The position numbers and the translations under genes were made by a program. From contig JAJFGL010000036.1 of NCBI GenBank assembly GCA_021776135.1, positions 160,473 through 224,472 of the forward strand: DNA of 64,000 nucleotides, read 5' to 3'. Under the pieces are notes generated by a model. It did no database searches. It saw only the letters and a list, made by a program, of their open reading frames with translations, and was not told the origin of the DNA. Source of the stretch: Kiloniellaceae bacterium. Lineage in GTDB: Bacteria; Pseudomonadota; Alphaproteobacteria; Kiloniellales; J153. Shown here one piece after another: positions 5,018 through 46,855 of the stretch (within the stretch, counting starts at the first letter, position 1; each line of letters begins with the position of its first letter).

Positions 5018-5806
5018 ATGCTGATCGATTCCCACTGTCATCTGGATTACCTGGCCCGCGACGGCGACCTGGACGCGGTCATCGCCCGCGCCCGCGACGC
5101 CGGTGTCGGCGCCATGATCACCATCTGCACTAAGCTGTCCGAGTTCGAGGCCGTGCGCGCCATCGCGGCGGGTCACGATGACATCTGGTGCTCCCTGGGG
5201 GTTCACCCGCATGAAGCGGCGGAGGAGGGGCAAAGCACCGCCGATCGCCTGATCGAACTCTCCCTTGCCGCCGAGGTCGTTGGCATCGGTGAGACCGGCC
5301 TCGACTATTTCTACGAACACTCTCCGCGACAGGCGCAGCAGGACAGCTTCCGCGCCCACATCGCGGCGGCGCGCGAGACCGGCCTGCCGCTTATCGTTCA
5401 CTCCCGCGACGCCGATGAGGATACCATTGCGATCCTGCGGGACGAATACGCCAAGGGTCCATTCGGCGGCGTCATTCATTGCTTCACCGCCGGCCGCGAA
5501 CTGGCCCAGGCGGCGCTCGAAATCGGGTTTTACATCTCCGCCGCTGGCATCGTGACCTTCAAGAACGCCGATGACTTGCGCGCCGCGCTACGCGAGGTGC
5601 CGCTGGACCGCTTGCTGGTCGAAACCGACTCGCCCTACCTGGCACCGGTGCCCATGCGCGGCAAGCGTAATGAGCCGGCCTTCGTCGCCCATACCGCCGC
5701 CGCCCTAGCCAAGCTGAAAGAGGTTTCCGTCGCCGAGACAATAAAAGCCACCGGCGATAACGCCTTGCGCCTCTTCGCCAAGATCCAGCGGCCGGGCGGC
5801 GTATGA
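5018..5806 (+). CDS. tatD: TatD-family metal-dependent DNase
   Basis: A 262-residue TIM-barrel hydrolase of the TatD/YcfH family, metal-dependent nucleases linked to DNA repair and turnover. Metal-site motifs are visible: DSHCHLD at the N-terminus, GETGLDY near residue 91, HSRDA near residue 128, HCFTAG near residue 151, and ETDSPYLAP near residue 203. The ATG at 5018 lies only 9 bases beyond the MITE-like element. The stop overlaps the next gene as ATGA, so the pair is coupled. The metG-tatD-metallohydrolase order is conserved in related bacteria. Confidence 0.93.
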   Translation: MLIDSHCHLDYLARDGDLDAVIARARDAGVGAMITICTKLSEFEAVRAIAAGHDDIWCSLGVHPHEAAEEGQSTADRLIELSLAAEVVGIGETGLDYFYEHSPRQAQQDSFRAHIAAARETGLPLIVHSRDADEDTIAILRDEYAKGPFGGVIHCFTAGRELAQAALEIGFYISAAGIVTFKNADDLRAALREVPLDRLLVETDSPYLAPVPMRGKRNEPAFVAHTAAALAKLKEVSVAETIKATGDNALRLFAKIQRPGGV

Positions 5807-6585
5807 AGGTTACCCTGCTAGGCTGCGGCGGGTCGGGCGGCGTGCCGGTGGCCGACGGTACGCCGGGCGGCTCTTGGGGTAACTGCGACCCGGCCAATAC
5901 CAAGAACCGGCGCCGACGGGTGTCGATCCTGGTGGAGCAGGGGGGCACCACGGCCCTGGTCGATACCTCGCCTGACTTGCGGCTTCAGCTTATCGACGCC
6001 GGGGTGCGCGATCTTGACGCCGTGATCTATACCCACGCCCATGCCGATCATGTCCACGGCATCGACGAACTGCGAGCCATGGCCAGAACCCACGGCGGAC
6101 CCATCGACGCCTTCATGGACTCGCGCACCCATCGCGATCTTACCGGGCGCTTCCCCTATATCTTTACCTCGACCCACGATACCGAGAGCCTGTATCCGGC
6201 GCTCATGCGCGACCATGAGATCGAGAGTGCATTTTCTACCGGCGCGATCGATGTCGTGCCGTTTTTCCAAGAACACGGGACCGGGGGCTCCCTGGGCCTG
6301 CGTTTTGGGCCCGTGGCTTACTCGACCGACGTCAAGCGCCTGGACGCCGCCGCCTTCGCGGCCCTTGACGGCATCGAGGTATGGATCGTCGATTGCCTGC
6401 GCGAAGACCCGCATCCGACCCACGCGCACCTGGCCCTGACCCTGGAGTGGATCGCCCAGGTTAAACCCAAACGCGCGATCCTGACCCACCTGAACCATCA
6501 AGCCGACTACGAAACCATCCTCGCCAAGTGCCCGCCAGGCGTCGAACCCGGCTACGATGGCATGACGATCGAGATGGATATCTGA
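5803..6585 (+). CDS. PhnP-like MBL-fold metallo-hydrolase
   Basis: 260 residues with the metallo-beta-lactamase fold. The N-terminal motif LLGCGGSGGVPVADG and the zinc-ligand motif HAHADHVHG (about residues 71-79) resemble PhnP/lipoate-protein-ligase-B-like hydrolases, often annotated as cyclic phosphodiesterase-type enzymes. Later histidines (HLNHQADY) fit the rest of the metal site. The substrate is unknown; there is no phosphonate operon here, and the family member next to tatD is usually an uncharacterised housekeeping gene. It overlaps tatD by ATGA. Confidence 0.85.
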   Translation: MKVTLLGCGGSGGVPVADGTPGGSWGNCDPANTKNRRRRVSILVEQGGTTALVDTSPDLRLQLIDAGVRDLDAVIYTHAHADHVHGIDELRAMARTHGGPIDAFMDSRTHRDLTGRFPYIFTSTHDTESLYPALMRDHEIESAFSTGAIDVVPFFQEHGTGGSLGLRFGPVAYSTDVKRLDAAAFAALDGIEVWIVDCLREDPHPTHAHLALTLEWIAQVKPKRAILTHLNHQADYETILAKCPPGVEPGYDGMTIEMDI

Positions 6586-6780
6586 ACTAATAGGGCTTTG
6601 TATTGAGTGTGAGGTTACTGTCTTTATTTCTTTAACCGTCACGGTTTTATCGATCGGATATCTGTGCAGAAATTCGCGATAGAAAAGAGCCAAATTCAGA
6701 ACGGCCCCTGCATTAAAATGAAGAGAAAAATGGGCTTAGTTCACTCTTTTTCTTTGTGGAGGATGCCTTCAAAGTTTGTA
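6586..6780. other. AT-rich intergenic junction
   Basis: Base composition falls sharply directly after the metallohydrolase stop, marking the left edge of the AT-rich patch. A small hairpin AACCG-TCA-CGGTT at 6634-6646, followed by a short T run, could end transcription from either side, but it is weak. Small ORFs here look like chance reading frames in AT-rich DNA. Confidence 0.5.
6634..6648 (+). terminator. Possible weak terminator hairpin
   Basis: 5-bp stem AACCG/CGGTT with a TCA loop, followed by TTTT overlapping the stem end. Its position 50 bases after the metallohydrolase stop suits a terminator, but the stem is short. Confidence 0.25.
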
Positions 6781-8448
6781 TTAGGGTCCAATAATGTCGC
6801 CTTTTCGCCGAACTCTCATATTTCCGAGAGCACTCCAAAGCATTGGAGCCACAGAAAGCCGTACTCCTTTCTCTAGGTCTTCAGGGTGTAATTCATACGA
6901 GCTATGAAAAGAGAAGTGTACGGGCTCACTTTTATTGGGCTTAACCCCAACAGCGCCTATTTTGTAAAAGATTGTTACGAGGTTCGATCGAACTTTTTCG
7001 AAAGAACAACGATCGTACATAAAATTATTTGCAATCTGCGGCATATTATCTGGGGCTTCTGGTCTATCGCATAAAGATAAAATCGTCCTTTCAAAAATTT
7101 CCTCAGATAAATCCCAATAATCTATGCGTGTTGGCATACGGCGAAGAACTTCGAGACATAATTCAAGATTAGGGTACTCATCTTTCCATTCTGTGCACAA
7201 TGCACGAAGTCGTTTTTTAGAATATATGATCTCCGCTTTATCGATATCCTCGGCTGTTATAGTATTTTTCCCTACAACCTGGATGAAAATGGTATTTATA
7301 AAGGCAATAATATCTCTCGGGCGCATTTGTGTTCTTTGGATCAGATAGTCAAATGTCTTTCCTTGTTGCCTGTATCTTGAAGGAAATATATCATTAAATT
7401 GAACATTCTCCTTCGTGTATTGCCGTCTGAAAAGTTCACCGATGCGTCTATTCACTAATAAATAAAGGTTGTCCCTATTCCAGGTGATCGGAATATGGAA
7501 ATCTTCATACTTCTCTTCCTGAAATCCACCCGATTTTGTGTATTTATATACACGCTCAATTAAATCTTGCCGTAGTGCGATTACTAATTTGACGGTTCTT
7601 ATTTTCCTAAACGCTTTGATAGCTTCTATTAGGGAACGTATTAACCGATACCTTAGGGCATCATCGACCCAGTTTTCGTCAAGTTTATCAATAACTATGT
7701 AATATTTATTCTGCTTGTTTGTAAAAATATCATCCGCGATCACGTTCATTAGGACGCTTAGCTTCTTGATTTGAACCTCGTTCACAACTTTTGTGGCATC
7801 TGTTACCAGCTCGAATTTTTTTTCACCATGAATTTTCGCAGATCCTTGAGCGTTTAATGGAACCCCTAGATTGGTTAAATCGACACCTGCCTGGAGATCA
7901 TTTTCGAAGCCTGTTACGATTTCTTTGATGCGCTCCTGAGTTTGTTCCCAGAAATGCGTTCCCCATTCTTCGAGGTACTCGAGTGATAGTTTTTTACCTT
8001 CGTTTTTAACAACTATGCCCTTGATTGATTCTATAGCTTTCTGGAAATCATTTACGTCCCGAATGTTATAATGATAATTTAGGAGCTCAACGCACAGGAC
8101 GTGTCGCCAAAGGAGTTGAAAAAATAAATCTAGATCTACTCCTATGCCATGAAAAAAAGAAAGTATGTTGGAGTTAGAAATGAAATTCAGTGCTAAATCT
8201 TCAGGGTCTATTCGAATAACATGATCTTGTGTTGAAATTATCTTCAAAATTGCTGCTGTCTTACCACATCCTGTTCGCCCTACTAAGATGCTGCCTGGAT
8301 CTTCGGTTGCTAGAGCCTGTTCGACATGGCCAATGTCGATGTAACATTGATCTAGAAATTCAATATCATCTTCCGCGTCAGCGAAACCAATCCGAACGCC
8401 TGTACGAAAGGCAATCTTATTTACTGGGAATTTTGATATTTTCGCCAT
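6781..8448 (-). CDS. P-loop ATPase, Sll1717-like
   Basis: A 555-residue protein with Walker A GRTGCGKT at residues 57-64, a Walker-B-like stretch YYIVIDKLDENW around 249-260, a sensor-1-like LVIALRQDL near 288-296 and a sensor-2-like RPRD near 376-379. This is the arrangement of an AAA+/STAND-type (Orc/KAP-like) ATPase. The stretch FISNSNILSFF and following region resemble the family named P-loop ATPase, Sll1717; function is unknown. The C-terminal third may hold a winged-helix-like region (inference). Codon use is AT-rich and strikingly unlike all neighbours, and the gene stands alone with its own leader. Acquisition by transfer is likely. A role in defence or signalling is only a guess. Confidence 0.7.
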   Translation of the reverse strand: MAKISKFPVNKIAFRTGVRIGFADAEDDIEFLDQCYIDIGHVEQALATEDPGSILVGRTGCGKTAAILKIISTQDHVIRIDPEDLALNFISNSNILSFFHGIGVDLDLFFQLLWRHVLCVELLNYHYNIRDVNDFQKAIESIKGIVVKNEGKKLSLEYLEEWGTHFWEQTQERIKEIVTGFENDLQAGVDLTNLGVPLNAQGSAKIHGEKKFELVTDATKVVNEVQIKKLSVLMNVIADDIFTNKQNKYYIVIDKLDENWVDDALRYRLIRSLIEAIKAFRKIRTVKLVIALRQDLIERVYKYTKSGGFQEEKYEDFHIPITWNRDNLYLLVNRRIGELFRRQYTKENVQFNDIFPSRYRQQGKTFDYLIQRTQMRPRDIIAFINTIFIQVVGKNTITAEDIDKAEIIYSKKRLRALCTEWKDEYPNLELCLEVLRRMPTRIDYWDLSEEIFERTILSLCDRPEAPDNMPQIANNFMYDRCSFEKVRSNLVTIFYKIGAVGVKPNKSEPVHFSFHSSYELHPEDLEKGVRLSVAPMLWSALGNMRVRRKGDIIGP

Positions 8449-8469
8449 ACAACAAATGCCTCAAACAAT

Positions 8470-8485
8470 CACCTTATATATGGTG
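8470..8485. promoter_or_regulatory. Near-palindromic TATATA site upstream of the ATPase
   Basis: CACCTTATATATGGTG is palindromic except for one mismatched pair and lies just upstream of the ATPase ATG at 8448. It could be a repressor operator or a promoter -10 region; nothing else in the sequence identifies a regulator. Confidence 0.3.
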
Positions 8486-8638
8486 ACATATTAAAACACG
8501 GAGGCCAATATTAGTGAGATTCCACATTTACAGTCTCAAGAGAAAAGGGCTTATTTTTGTGATATTTTGCACACCAATCTATCAATAAGGCCATATCACG
8601 TTCGTTTTCAGACAGAGTACAATGCAATATTCAGCTAA

Positions 8639-8672
8639 GCGCGTAATTTTCCATAATATAAATTATGCGCGC
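8639..8672. repeat. Inverted repeat, GCGCGTAATTT arms
   Basis: Left arm GCGCGTAATTT (8639-8649) pairs with AAATTATGCGCGC (8660-8672) with one bulge. It lies in non-coding AT-rich DNA. It could be a protein-binding site, an RNA hairpin or a recombination remnant. Confidence 0.45.
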
Positions 8673-8692
8673 TTTATTGATTGACGCACAGG

Positions 8693-8710
8693 TTTTGCCA
8701 TTTGGCAAAA
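8693..8710. repeat. Hairpin TTTTGCC-ATTT-GGCAAAA
   Basis: A perfect 7-bp stem with a 4-base loop and A/T-rich flanks on both sides, about 80 bases past the stop of the leftward ftsZ-like gene. Read leftward, the stem is followed by only a short AC-rich stretch; it may be a bidirectional terminator, though weak. Confidence 0.35.
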
Positions 8711-8787
8711 ATTATGCCTGTTCAATGAATTGTGTCAGATTTTTCGTGAATTGGATTAGCTGCGAGGCCTCTGCCCCGCCGCGCTAA

Positions 8788-10866
8788 TCAGGTATCGACG
8801 CCGAGTTCTTCTAGGTGCTTGGCGGCCCATTCGTGGCCGCGGGCGGCGGAGCGGCGGAACCAGCGGACGGCTTCGTCCATGTCTTTTTCAACGCCCCAAC
8901 CGTTTTCGAACATCTGGCCCATGTTGTATTCGGCGTAGCTATCGTATTTCGACGCCGCCAATTCGAACCAGCGTATCGCTTCCTCGTGGCTTTGCGGCAC
9001 GCCCCAGCCTTGCCGGTACATATAGCCGATATCGTTCATGGCGTTGACATAGCCTTGGTCGGCCGCCTTGCGGTACCACTTGACGGCTTCGGCGTGATCG
9101 ACCTCGACCCCCTCGCCTTTCTCGTACATCCAGCCGACCCGGTTCTGCGCCCCCGGATGGCCGGATTTCGCCGCTTCGATGTAGGATTTCAGCGCCAGTT
9201 CAAGATCCTTGGCCTCCCCTTGGCCATGATAGTAGCGGTCCGCTTTCGCGAACAAATCCTCGGGTTCGCCGCCGGAACCGCTGGAAATCCAGGAAAAGAA
9301 GCCGCCGGATTTCTTCGCTTTTCCCTCCGGCCCGGACGCCGCGCCGCCCGGGGCTTCGCCTTGGGCTCCCACCGGAGCCTCCGGGATTTTCTGGAAGGTC
9401 CCAGCCGGGGTATCGAGAACCAACGCCGGTTTGACCGGCGCGCTATCGTCTTGGCCGGGCGCCGCCGCATCCTTCGCTTCGCCGCTGTCCGTGACCTGCC
9501 CGGTCTTGGAGTCTAGGTCTTCGCCGCGCTTCGGCTTGCTCTCCTGTCCCGGCCAAACCCGAAGTTCGTCTTGCGCGTCCGCTTGCCCGGTTTCGGCCCC
9601 CCCGTCCGTGGCCAAGACGGGCGGCGCGGACGCTTGGATCGGCATGGCGGCGGCGCCCGGCGTTTCCGTGTCCTTGGGCTCGCGCGCACGGGCCCGGAAA
9701 GGAAATACGGGGGCCGATGCCCGGCGCGGCGGCGCGCTCTCCCGATCCCGGTCATGGGGGACGGTTTCGTTTTCGCCGGCTGCCGCATCCTCCTCGGCCC
9801 CGGCCGCTGCTGTAATATCGCGCGCGCCCTCCTCGGCCCGCTCCGAATACAGGCTGACGATCGGACGCTTGGAGCGGTCATCGCGCGCCGGTAGCTCGCC
9901 GGCGTCGATTCCGGCCGCGACCAGGGCCACGCGCATACGCCCGGACATGTTCTCATTGAAGGTCGAGCCGAAAATAATATTGGCGTCCGCATCGACCTCG
10001 TCGCGGATACGGTTCGCCGCCTGGTCGATCTCGAACAGAGTCAAATCCATGCCGCCGGTGATATTGATCAGGACCCCGCGCGCGCCCTTCATGGAAATAT
10101 CGTCTAGCAGAGGGTTGGATATGGCGGCCTCCGCCGCCTCCAGGGCCCGGTTTTCGCCCTCGGCCTCGCCGCTGCCCATGATGGCCTTGCCCATTTCGGT
10201 CATCACGGCGCGCACATCGGCGAAATCCAGATTGATAAGACCCGGCGTCACCATGAGGTCGGTCACCCCGCGAACCCCCGCGTGCAGCACGTCGTCGGCC
10301 ATCTTGAAGGCGTCGGCGAAGGTGGTCCGCTCATTGGCGACGCGGAATAGGTTCTGGTTCGGAATCACGATCAGGGTATCGACGTGATCCGCCATTTCCT
10401 CGATTCCGGCCTCGGCCAGGTCCATGCGCCGGGTGCCTTCGAAATGGAACGGCTTGGTCACCACGCCGACAGTCAGAACGCCGGCCTCGCGCGCCGCCTT
10501 GGCGATGACCGGCGCGCTGCCGGTGCCGGTGCCGCCACCCATGCCGGCGGTGATGAACACCATGTTCGCGTCCCCGATCGCGCGCAAAATTTCCGATTGC
10601 GATTCCTCGGCAGCGGCGCGGCCGATATCGGGCCGGGAACCGGCGCCCAAGCCTTGGGTTAGGGTAACCCCCATTTGAATCCGGTTCTGACTGAGCGAGG
10701 TAGCCAAGGCCTGGGCATCGGTATTCGCGGCCGCGAATTCGACCCCGGCTAGCTTGGCGCCGATCATGTTATTGACGGCGTTGCCGCCCGCCCCGCCGAC
10801 GCCGATAACGACAATACGCGGTCCCGCCGCTAAGTCCGGTGCCGGGCCGTCAGGCATGTCCGTCAT
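8788..10866 (-). CDS. FtsZ-like GTPase fused to C-terminal Sel1 repeats
   Basis: The 692-residue protein begins with a full FtsZ GTPase region (about residues 14-325): [15 protein letters not shown], the tubulin signature GGGTGTGS at 110-117 and the T7-loop motif NLDFADV at 212-218, so nucleotide binding and polymer-coupled hydrolysis residues look intact. A long disordered, Pro/Ala/Glu-rich linker follows. The last roughly 160 residues are about four Sel1-like repeats (for example [34 protein letters not shown]). The usual C-terminal peptide that binds FtsA is not visible. I start at ATG 10866, giving a normal FtsZ N-terminus, and not at 10968 as in the track. It is probably an additional FtsZ, since no ftsQA is nearby. 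Confidence 0.88.
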
Positions 10867-10998
10867 GCGAAAATCCCATGAAATCCCGCGCGATTCGTTC
10901 GATGACTGAATGCGGCGGAGCCTAAAGTGTCTGATTCGGGCGCGCAACCTCTTCCCTAAGACTCCCATGGCCGGTTGCAGGGCATGGAACGGCCCTGC

Positions 10999-11036: not shown

Positions 11037-11864
11037 ATGGACGAAACGCCCCCCCCACACCCGCGCGGCGATCCCATGGCGGCCTTGCGCGTCATCATGG
11101 CGCGCTTGCGCGATCCCAAGAACGGCTGCCCTTGGGATGTCGAGCAAACTTTCGCCAGCATCGCGCCCTATACCATCGAGGAAGCCTATGAAGTCGCCGA
11201 CGCCATCGCCCAAGGCGATCTCCCGGCGCTCAAGGAAGAACTTGGCGATCTGCTTCTTCAAGTGGTCTTTCACGCCCGCATGGCCGAGGAGGCGGGCGCT
11301 TTCGATTTCGATGCCGTGGCGGCGGCCATAGGCGACAAAATGCTGCGCCGCCACCCCCATGTCTTCGGCGGCGGCAAGGTCGAGAACACCGCCGCCCAGA
11401 GCCAAGCCTGGGAAGACCACAAGTCGGTGGAACGCCGCGCCAAGGCGGCGGCGGATGGCCGGACGCCGAGTGTCCTGGATGGGGTGGCGCTGGGCCTTCC
11501 GGCCTTGTCGCGGGCGCTGAAGCTGCAAAAACGCGCGGCGCGGGTCGGCTTCGATTGGCCCGAGGCCGTTCAAGTCCTGGACAAGATCGAGGAGGAAATC
11601 GGCGAACTCCGGGCCGAAATAGAAGCCGGCGCCGGGCGCGAACGCCTGGAGGACGAACTTGGCGATATTCTTTTCGCGGCCGCGAACCTGGCCCGCCATT
11701 TCGGCATCGATCCCGAAGCGGCCTTACGCGGAACCAACGATAAATTCACCCGCCGCTTTCACGCGGTCGAGGACCATTTCGGCGGCCAGGGGCAAGGTTT
11801 GACTCGGGCTTCCCTCGAAGACATGGAGTCCGCCTGGCAAGCCGCCAAGGCGGGCGAAACTTAA
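11037..11864 (+). CDS. mazG: Nucleoside triphosphate pyrophosphohydrolase MazG
   Basis: Hydrolyses (d)NTPs to monophosphates plus pyrophosphate, a house-cleaning role. The 275-residue protein has the two tandem MazG domains of the long form. The first has EEAYEVADAI and EELGDLLLQV (about residues 43-80); the second has EEIGELRAEI and DELGDILFAA (about residues 184-220), giving the EExxE...ExxD metal-binding pattern. KNGCPWDVEQT near the N-terminus is typical. In related genomes mazG follows the tatD-metallohydrolase pair directly, so the ATPase and FtsZ-Sel1 genes seem to interrupt that order. Confidence 0.95.
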   Translation: MDETPPPHPRGDPMAALRVIMARLRDPKNGCPWDVEQTFASIAPYTIEEAYEVADAIAQGDLPALKEELGDLLLQVVFHARMAEEAGAFDFDAVAAAIGDKMLRRHPHVFGGGKVENTAAQSQAWEDHKSVERRAKAAADGRTPSVLDGVALGLPALSRALKLQKRAARVGFDWPEAVQVLDKIEEEIGELRAEIEAGAGRERLEDELGDILFAAANLARHFGIDPEAALRGTNDKFTRRFHAVEDHFGGQGQGLTRASLEDMESAWQAAKAGET

Positions 11865-45634: not shown

Positions 45635-46855
45635 TTAGGCTGGGCTAGGCGGTTGTTCGGCCAAGCTGGCCTGGCGCAAGATGCCCCGGTAGATTTCCTC
45701 GTCCCCGCACACCCCGACCAGCTTACCCTCCTCGACCAGGGCGACCGGGTGGCCGCTGGCTTGGCGCAGGCGGATCGCGCCGTGCATGGACATATCCACC
45801 GGCCCGACGATGAGGGCGGCGCCGACGATGGCCAGGTTGTCGAGAGCTTGCGCGTCGGCGTCGGGATCGAAGGTCATTATCTTTCCGGCCCGGCCGTCAA
45901 GGGTCACCCCTTGGGGCGCGCCTTCGCTGTCGAGGGTCACCCGGAAGCGCCCATGGCGGTCCAGAAGCACGGCATCGCCATCGCGTTTCAAATCGTCGAG
46001 AGCGGTCATGAGCGAGGCGCCGCGCAGCACGTTCAGGGGATTCATATGGGCGACGAACTCGGCCACGTATTCATTAGCCGGGTTGAGCACGATTTCCTCC
46101 GGCTCACCGTATTGCACGATCCGGCCACCCTCCATGATCGCAATGTGGGTGCCGATCTTCAAGGCTTCGTCGAGATCGTGGCTGACGAATATTATGGTCT
46201 TGCGCAGCGAGCGTTGCAGATCCAGCAACTCATCCTGCAAGTGGTTGCGGATCAGGGGATCGAGGGCCGAAAACGGTTCGTCCATAAGCAGGATATCGGC
46301 GTCGGTGGCGAAGGCGCGCGCCAGTCCCACACGCTGCTGCATACCGCCCGACAACTCGTGCGCGTACTTGTCCTTCCACTGGTCCAGGCTGACGAGTTTC
46401 AATTTTTCCTCGACAATGCGCGTGCGCTCCGCCTTGGACATGCCGCGCAATTCCAAGCCGAAGCCGACGTTCTCCGCCACCGTGCGCCAGGGCAGCAGGG
46501 CGAACTGCTGAAACACCATGGCGATGCGGTTCATGCGCAGGCGGCGCAGGGTCGCGGCATCGCAGGAGGCGACATCGATGGCCACCTCGCCGTCCTTAAC
46601 CAGAACCTGCCCCCGGCTGACTTGGTTCAATCCATTGACACAGCGCAACAACGTGGACTTGCCGGAACCGGACAGGCCCATGAGGACGCAGACCTCGCCC
46701 TCCTCGATGGAAATCGAGGCCCCGGCGACGCCAACCACATGTCCGGTCTCGGCCAAAATCGCATCGCGGCCGCCGCCTTGGTCAAGCATCTCCAAGGCGC
46801 GCGCGGGTTCCTTGCCGAAGATGACATCGACATCGCGGAACTCAACGGCGGCCAT
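45635..46855 (-). CDS. choV: Choline/glycine-betaine ABC transporter ATP-binding protein
   Basis: 406 residues: ABC ATPase with Walker A GLSGSGKST (about 59-67), signature LSGGMQQRVGLARA (about 168-181), Walker B ILLMDEPFSALDP (about 188-200). A C-terminal region resembles the CBS-type regulatory domains of ProV/OpuA. Together with ChoW and ChoX it imports quaternary ammonium compounds. Gene order choX-choW-choV is as in other alphaproteobacteria; the 3-base gap from choW supports coupling. Confidence 0.9.
   Translation of the reverse strand: MAAVEFRDVDVIFGKEPARALEMLDQGGGRDAILAETGHVVGVAGASISIEEGEVCVLMGLSGSGKSTLLRCVNGLNQVSRGQVLVKDGEVAIDVASCDAATLRRLRMNRIAMVFQQFALLPWRTVAENVGFGLELRGMSKAERTRIVEEKLKLVSLDQWKDKYAHELSGGMQQRVGLARAFATDADILLMDEPFSALDPLIRNHLQDELLDLQRSLRKTIIFVSHDLDEALKIGTHIAIMEGGRIVQYGEPEEIVLNPANEYVAEFVAHMNPLNVLRGASLMTALDDLKRDGDAVLLDRHGRFRVTLDSEGAPQGVTLDGRAGKIMTFDPDADAQALDNLAIVGAALIVGPVDMSMHGAIRLRQASGHPVALVEEGKLVGVCGDEEIYRGILRQASLAEQPPSPA

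Follow-up and report, generated by a model that had tools for sequence, protein, structure and literature searches.

We found that an AT-rich island with one intact gene, encoding a P-loop ATPase of the Sll1717 family, is inserted beside the chromosomal dif site in the window (the whole stretch of DNA analysed, 64,000 nucleotides of a 3.96 Mb draft genome). The island is foreign in composition, the motifs of its ATPase are intact, and the homologues have a patchy, mobile distribution that includes repeated occupation of prophage cargo slots. From this location, from fusions in distant relatives and from the predicted fold, we consider the island to be probably a horizontally acquired piece of single-gene anti-phage or anti-element cargo, with the ATPase as a candidate for a defence role. 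Both the Sll1717 ATPase family and integration at dif were known before; new are the placement of the ATPase, the order-wide insertion hotspot at dif, and the case for the ATPase family as single-gene defence cargo.

A foreign island with a single gene

The island extends from 6586 to about 8759, and its GC content is far below that of its flanks (~65%) and of the window overall (~60–70%). The locus contains the following features.

5803..6585, plus strand: metallo-beta-lactamase-fold hydrolase gene, conserved dif neighbour (Pfam, synteny)
6586..8759, no strand: AT-rich island, ~39% GC, between the metallo-hydrolase gene and FtsZ-Sel1 (composition; near-empty sites in the relatives G003 and G005)
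6781..8448, minus strand: 555-aa P-loop ATPase, Sll1717 family (profile matches to NF047389 and phrog_13260)
8646..8670, minus strand: chromosomal dif site GCGCATAATTTATATTATGGAAAAT, consisting of XerC arm, 6-bp centre and XerD arm (unique in the genome)
8788..10968, minus strand: FtsZ-Sel1 fusion gene, resident dif neighbour in this bacterial family (profile matches; relatives G003 and G005)
11037..11864, plus strand: mazG, conserved neighbour across dif from the hydrolase (Pfam, synteny)

In a composition scan, GC drops from 0.63–0.67 to 0.36–0.41 across the island and then recovers. At 20-bp steps the fall begins at ~6580, at the stop codon of the metallo-hydrolase gene, and ends at ~8760, about 30 bp before the stop codon of FtsZ-Sel1, which bears out the abrupt borders given in the preliminary description and confirms the foreign origin of the island. 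The ATPase gene is its sole sizeable open reading frame of island-like composition and is present once in the source genome. At the island borders, a search for terminal or direct repeats gave short, chance-like ones only, and a non-coding RNA search of the island gave just a sub-threshold U6 match (E = 0.46) that we read as chance. Elsewhere in the window, at 46653–46745, ARAGORN predicts a tRNA (tRNA-???) whose anticodon, with two bases, is unusual.

The ATPase gene could be passive foreign DNA, the silent or neutral leftover of a lost dif-integrating prophage. The promoter search fits such a leftover: 9 promoter-like sites turned up where 6.1 were expected, and none was convincing. We nevertheless regard this explanation as quite improbable, since the gene has an unbroken reading frame and retains every motif that is invariant in the family.

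The spacer between the stop codons of FtsZ-Sel1 and the hydrolase gene is only 364 bp in the same-genus genome G003 and 245 bp in G005. FtsZ-Sel1 is therefore a resident of the locus, and the added DNA is the ATPase island only. The preliminary description had the hydrolase and mazG genes split by an insertion that included FtsZ-Sel1; the insertion of the ATPase island stands, and the inclusion of FtsZ-Sel1 does not. FtsZ-Sel1 adjoins dif in all examined members of the source's bacterial family, and a separate FtsZ exists elsewhere in the genome; a literature search found no paper on the fusion.

The hydrolase and mazG genes flank dif

That the island is inserted at dif had been overlooked. 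The spacer of G003 contains a 25-bp sequence, GCGCATAATGTATATTATGGAAAAT, from which the G005 version differs by two mismatches. This sequence is nearly identical to bacterial dif, which reads GGTGCGCATAATGTATATTATGTTAAAT in E. coli. In the source genome dif is found in a single copy, allowing up to three mismatches; this copy is within the AT-rich DNA, between the ATPase gene and FtsZ-Sel1. The XerD gene of the same genome scores over the equivalog cut-off, and GC skew has no clear switch within the 64-kb window. A slightly looser dif pattern matches 54 of 60 genomes of the order, 53 of them with one copy, and the reversed pattern, used as a control, matches none.

The hydrolase and mazG genes had been thought to be adjacent by default. 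We found instead that dif separates them in 26 of the 29 order genomes that have hydrolase, dif and mazG on one contig, with gaps between dif and either gene that range from 25 bp to 25 kb across the order. The supposed broken housekeeping pair is the dif locus of the order, and this conserved hydrolase–dif–mazG neighbourhood could help to locate dif in draft genomes.

Because the ATPase gene adjoins dif, a host function at this site, such as control of Xer recombination or handling of the terminus, has to be considered. It is very hard to reconcile with the other genomes of the bacterial family, which possess dif without the ATPase gene, or with the regions fetched around other homologues, none of which contains a dif-like site. 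On the latter ground we rejected the ATPase as a dif-specific protein.

Other insertions at dif and a possible route of entry

The same-genus genome G001 has a 10.8-kb phage-like insert (L039, 6895–17761) next to the hydrolase gene, bounded at one end by a full dif and at the other by a half dif, CGGCACTGTGTATATTATGGAAAAT, in which the XerD arm is intact and the XerC arm degenerate. The insert codes for a packaging ATPase, a major head protein and a transglycosylase-like protein (PHROG matches), together with a protein matching phrog_11698 whose replication-type function was judged by eye; no tail genes were recognised in it. G036, from another family, has an 11.1-kb element (L145, 4830–15950) whose ends are likewise a full dif and a half dif, the latter with its XerC arm degenerate, and which holds homologues of the G001 head protein and packaging ATPase. 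A 4.7-kb insert in G002 has a relative of the G001 replication-type protein. Judged by their gene content, the G001 and G036 elements are related ~11-kb tailless-phage-like prophages in two families of the order, and the dif locus of the order acts, by the same genomic evidence, as an insertion hotspot that small tailless-phage-like prophages use. Tailless and filamentous prophages also sit at Vibrio dif sites, with an accessory-gene hotspot enriched in defence functions near their borders (PMC11630473).

Relative to dif, the island occupies the side on which G001 has its prophage, and it could therefore be the surviving cargo of a dif-integrating element. We searched the left island border for a second dif or half dif; the best match to the XerD half, 11 of 15 positions, is equalled in 85% of shuffles, so that the island has one dif only and is not bounded by two dif-like sites as an IMEX or Xer element would be. 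With no second half-site left, Xer-mediated entry is a tentative reading, in which the island would have arrived as accessory cargo of an Xer-integrating element.

Family, motifs and predicted structure of the ATPase

The assignment of a lone Sll1717-like P-loop ATPase held up well. The protein scores 219.3 bits (E = 1e-64) with NCBIfam NF047389 (P-loop ATPase, Sll1717 family), whose cut-off is 75, and the match covers residues 20–541 and all 454 profile positions (1–454). The annotated function of phrog_13260 is unknown, and a literature search found no paper naming the Sll1717 family. In the alignments, Walker A and Walker B are intact and all family-invariant residues are kept. The ATPase has the following parts, all on the minus strand.

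8257..8280: Walker A, GRTGCGKT, residues 57–64 (invariant or nearly so in clade alignments)
7725..8169: helical insertion typical of the clade, located between the two Walker motifs, residues ~94–241 (predicted helices)
7675..7704: Walker B region, IVIDKLDE, residues 249–258, with D254 and D257 invariant (alignments; model strand 249–253)
7561..7578: putative sensor-1-like strand, ALRQDL, residues 291–296, with R293 and D295 invariant (alignments, model)
7312..7323: RPRD motif of putative function, residues 376–379, with R376, P377 and R378 invariant (alignment)
6814..7185: putative C-terminal winged-helix-like domain, residues ~422–545 (model secondary structure)

A 24-sequence alignment yielded a confident structure model (pLDDT 84.5, pTM 0.82). 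In it, a large insertion of helices separates the two Walker motifs of the P-loop core; helical and winged-helix-like domains come after the core, the winged-helix-like fold being the one predicted for the C-terminus. The closest fold matches are archaeal SSO1545 (2fna; best E 5e-4), RdrA of RADAR, BrxC of BREX and Orc1/Cdc6, and further down come TnsC, MuB and a plant NLR. These matches are remote (TM 0.36), with DNA-metabolism proteins of the Orc, TnsC and MuB kind in a similar score range, and the model suggests a place in the AAA+/STAND region of fold space and no finer one. By sequence, no convincing solved homologue was found in the PDB. Pfam gives only sub-threshold STAND and AAA matches (nSTAND1 at 14.9 bits against a cut-off of 27.1; 26.1 in a homologue). 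The repeat sensor domain found at the C-terminus of STAND NTPases was not seen, as Pfam finds no repeats and the model has a winged-helix-like domain in that position. KAP_NTPase, the PifA type, does not match the window ATPase in Pfam up to E = 1, and one prophage relative exceeds its cut-off (27.4 against 20).

The main rival to a defence role is that the ATPase is a DNA-maintenance or mobilisation helper of the Orc1/Cdc6, TnsC or MuB kind, derived from a plasmid or integrating element and acting in replication, partition or integration. The fold permits it: these proteins are among the fold matches, and the predicted winged-helix-like C-terminus would fit DNA binding. In some records, homologues go by the name 'DNA repair protein'. 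What argues against it is the distribution of the gene, which hops between slots unlinked to any one replicon, transposase or integrase, and near-identical copies of which occur in unrelated elements and slots, among them P2-like carriers that already own gpA and packaging genes. We consider a helper function unlikely.

Homologues on plasmids and in prophage cargo slots

Homologues in conserved housekeeping contexts only, or with a known cellular role, would have spoken against a defence role; we found no known role, and homologues on plasmids and in prophage cargo slots. An ATPase match over the cut-off occurs in 15 of 337 genomes of the class, any match in 4 of 63 genomes of the order, and the source genome is the only one with a match among nine of its bacterial family. 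Full-length relatives with 35–42% identity are encoded on two alphaproteobacterial chromosomes, in other genomes of the class and on plasmids, F-like and others, and seven viral contigs carry full-length relatives with 33–39% identity. Among plasmid records, 90 match at E<=1e-5, and 57 of these are typed conjugative. The homologues are solo genes and mostly AT-richer than their surroundings (GC 0.43 where the locus has 0.60, and 0.45 where it has 0.64), with a GC of 0.33 on F-like plasmids. Many Klebsiella and Raoultella plasmids (H4–H8, H64–H71) have the homologue as two or three fragments, a possible sign that it is costly to carry. The many split Klebsiella copies also indicate that the gene is easily lost, a point in favour of passive foreign DNA.

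A sister clade with ~23–29% identity consists of solo prophage genes of ~510–533 aa, mostly at 29–35% GC. Its members L106, L112, L120 and L105 lie beside P2-like portal/terminase genes and gpA; L119, L104 and L108 lie among tail-completion, lysis and baseplate genes, and L116 follows a tape-measure gene. The gpA–gpQ slot of P2 is an experimentally validated anti-phage hotspot (PMC9122126). In the tree, short branches separate the near-identical L119 (tail-completion/baseplate), L120 (gpA–gpQ) and L124 (e14-like). A search of 50,697 phage records returned no match to the window ATPase, and L107 likewise had no close relative in phage records. In viral contigs the single-protein query found no close relative, and a clade alignment as query found 27.

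Natural relatives are available in E. coli for standard assays, such as WP_000026497, encoded on F-like plasmids, and WP_045133314, encoded in an e14-like prophage. The plasmid type occurs in 30 of 5,426 genomes and is never chromosomal, and the sister clade occurs as a prophage type in 13. The four E. coli sister-clade loci examined belong to two settings: an e14-like prophage, at its icd/intE border, and a dic-region prophage.

Links to defence genes

The preliminary description had proposed testing the neighbourhoods of homologues for defence genes. Such genes occur near some relatives, namely PifA, PDC-M28A/B or Mads proteins, while the chromosomal neighbours of the nearest clade are mostly non-defence genes; other relatives lie near ppl, or near a pair of a UvrD helicase and an ATP-dependent nuclease. 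The defence-gene scan of 121 neighbours ran without a control set, and we therefore claim no enrichment in defence genes. The window ATPase itself has weak PADLOC matches to PDC-M28C (E = 3.5e-6) and mad8 (E = 0.031), with no partner gene in the island and no strong system match that includes partner genes.

Distant members of the family have fused domains. In L080 (899–3325) and L081 (8492–10816) an N-terminal region is nucleoside-deoxyribosyltransferase/TIR-like at a Pfam E of ~5e-4, below the cut-off. In L048 (360–2438) a C-terminal extension matches the candidate defence protein PDC-M36A (E = 1.4e-9) and is PD-(D/E)XK nuclease-like by eye. Separately, the ATPase at 8754–10487 of L088 matches the PADLOC candidate PDC-M28C at E = 4e-20. 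As the scan of neighbours gave hits to PDC-M28A and PDC-M28B as well, a three-gene candidate system that includes such an ATPase may exist in this region.

A proposed role in defence

We favour a defence role because the homologues are patchy, solo, mostly AT-rich, and found on plasmids and in prophage cargo slots; one gene that moves between the slots of unrelated elements behaves as defence cargo does. We infer that the ATPase would be an ATP-loaded switch that guards the cell and the carrier element against competing phages and elements. A phage-derived trigger would change its nucleotide or oligomer state, and the triggered ATPase would halt the infection, probably at the expense of the cell. 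No separate nuclease, TIR or membrane effector domain was found in the window ATPase, and the effector step would therefore have to come from the helices inserted between the two Walker motifs or from the winged-helix-like C-terminal domain, either of which would act itself or recruit a partner.

A wider generalization can be offered tentatively. The dif locus of the order might be an Xer-served cargo slot, and the Sll1717 ATPases might be a new stand-alone, single-gene type of anti-phage system that travels via dif, P2 hotspots, e14-like borders and F-like plasmids and has neither an integrase nor a partner gene of its own. With the present analysis, an ATPase that had been anonymous and without a known function becomes a concrete candidate for testing one-gene defence against phages, and the insertion hotspot seen across the order at the predicted dimer-resolution site of the chromosome is a place to seek more such cargo.

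Comparison with known systems

The window ATPase is a full-length member of NF047389, well over the curated cut-off. The family has no known function, and the branch of the window member is distinguished by its helical insertion of ~145 residues and has no fused effector. The resemblance to RdrA of RADAR and BrxC of BREX is one of a remote AAA+ fold with low TM-scores, and the island differs from those systems in having no RdrB-like or BREX partner genes. The archaeal AAA+/STAND-like proteins SSO1545 (2fna) and PABY2304 (2qen), and Orc1/Cdc6, resemble the ATPase in domain order, the P-loop core coming before helical and winged-helix-like domains; identity is ~11%, and the large insert between its two Walker motifs sets the ATPase apart from them.

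Xer-integrated dif elements, such as CTX-type IMEX and tailless Vibrio prophages (PMC11630473), use the same target site as the island, and G001 and G036 have the corresponding flanks of a full and a half dif, whereas the island has one dif and no phage or integrase genes. Single-gene cargo of the P2-like hotspot (the old/tin slot, gpA–gpQ; PMC9122126) includes sister-clade members as solo AT-rich genes. The window copy differs from these in its position at the chromosomal dif, outside any P2 prophage, and its activity is that of a candidate.
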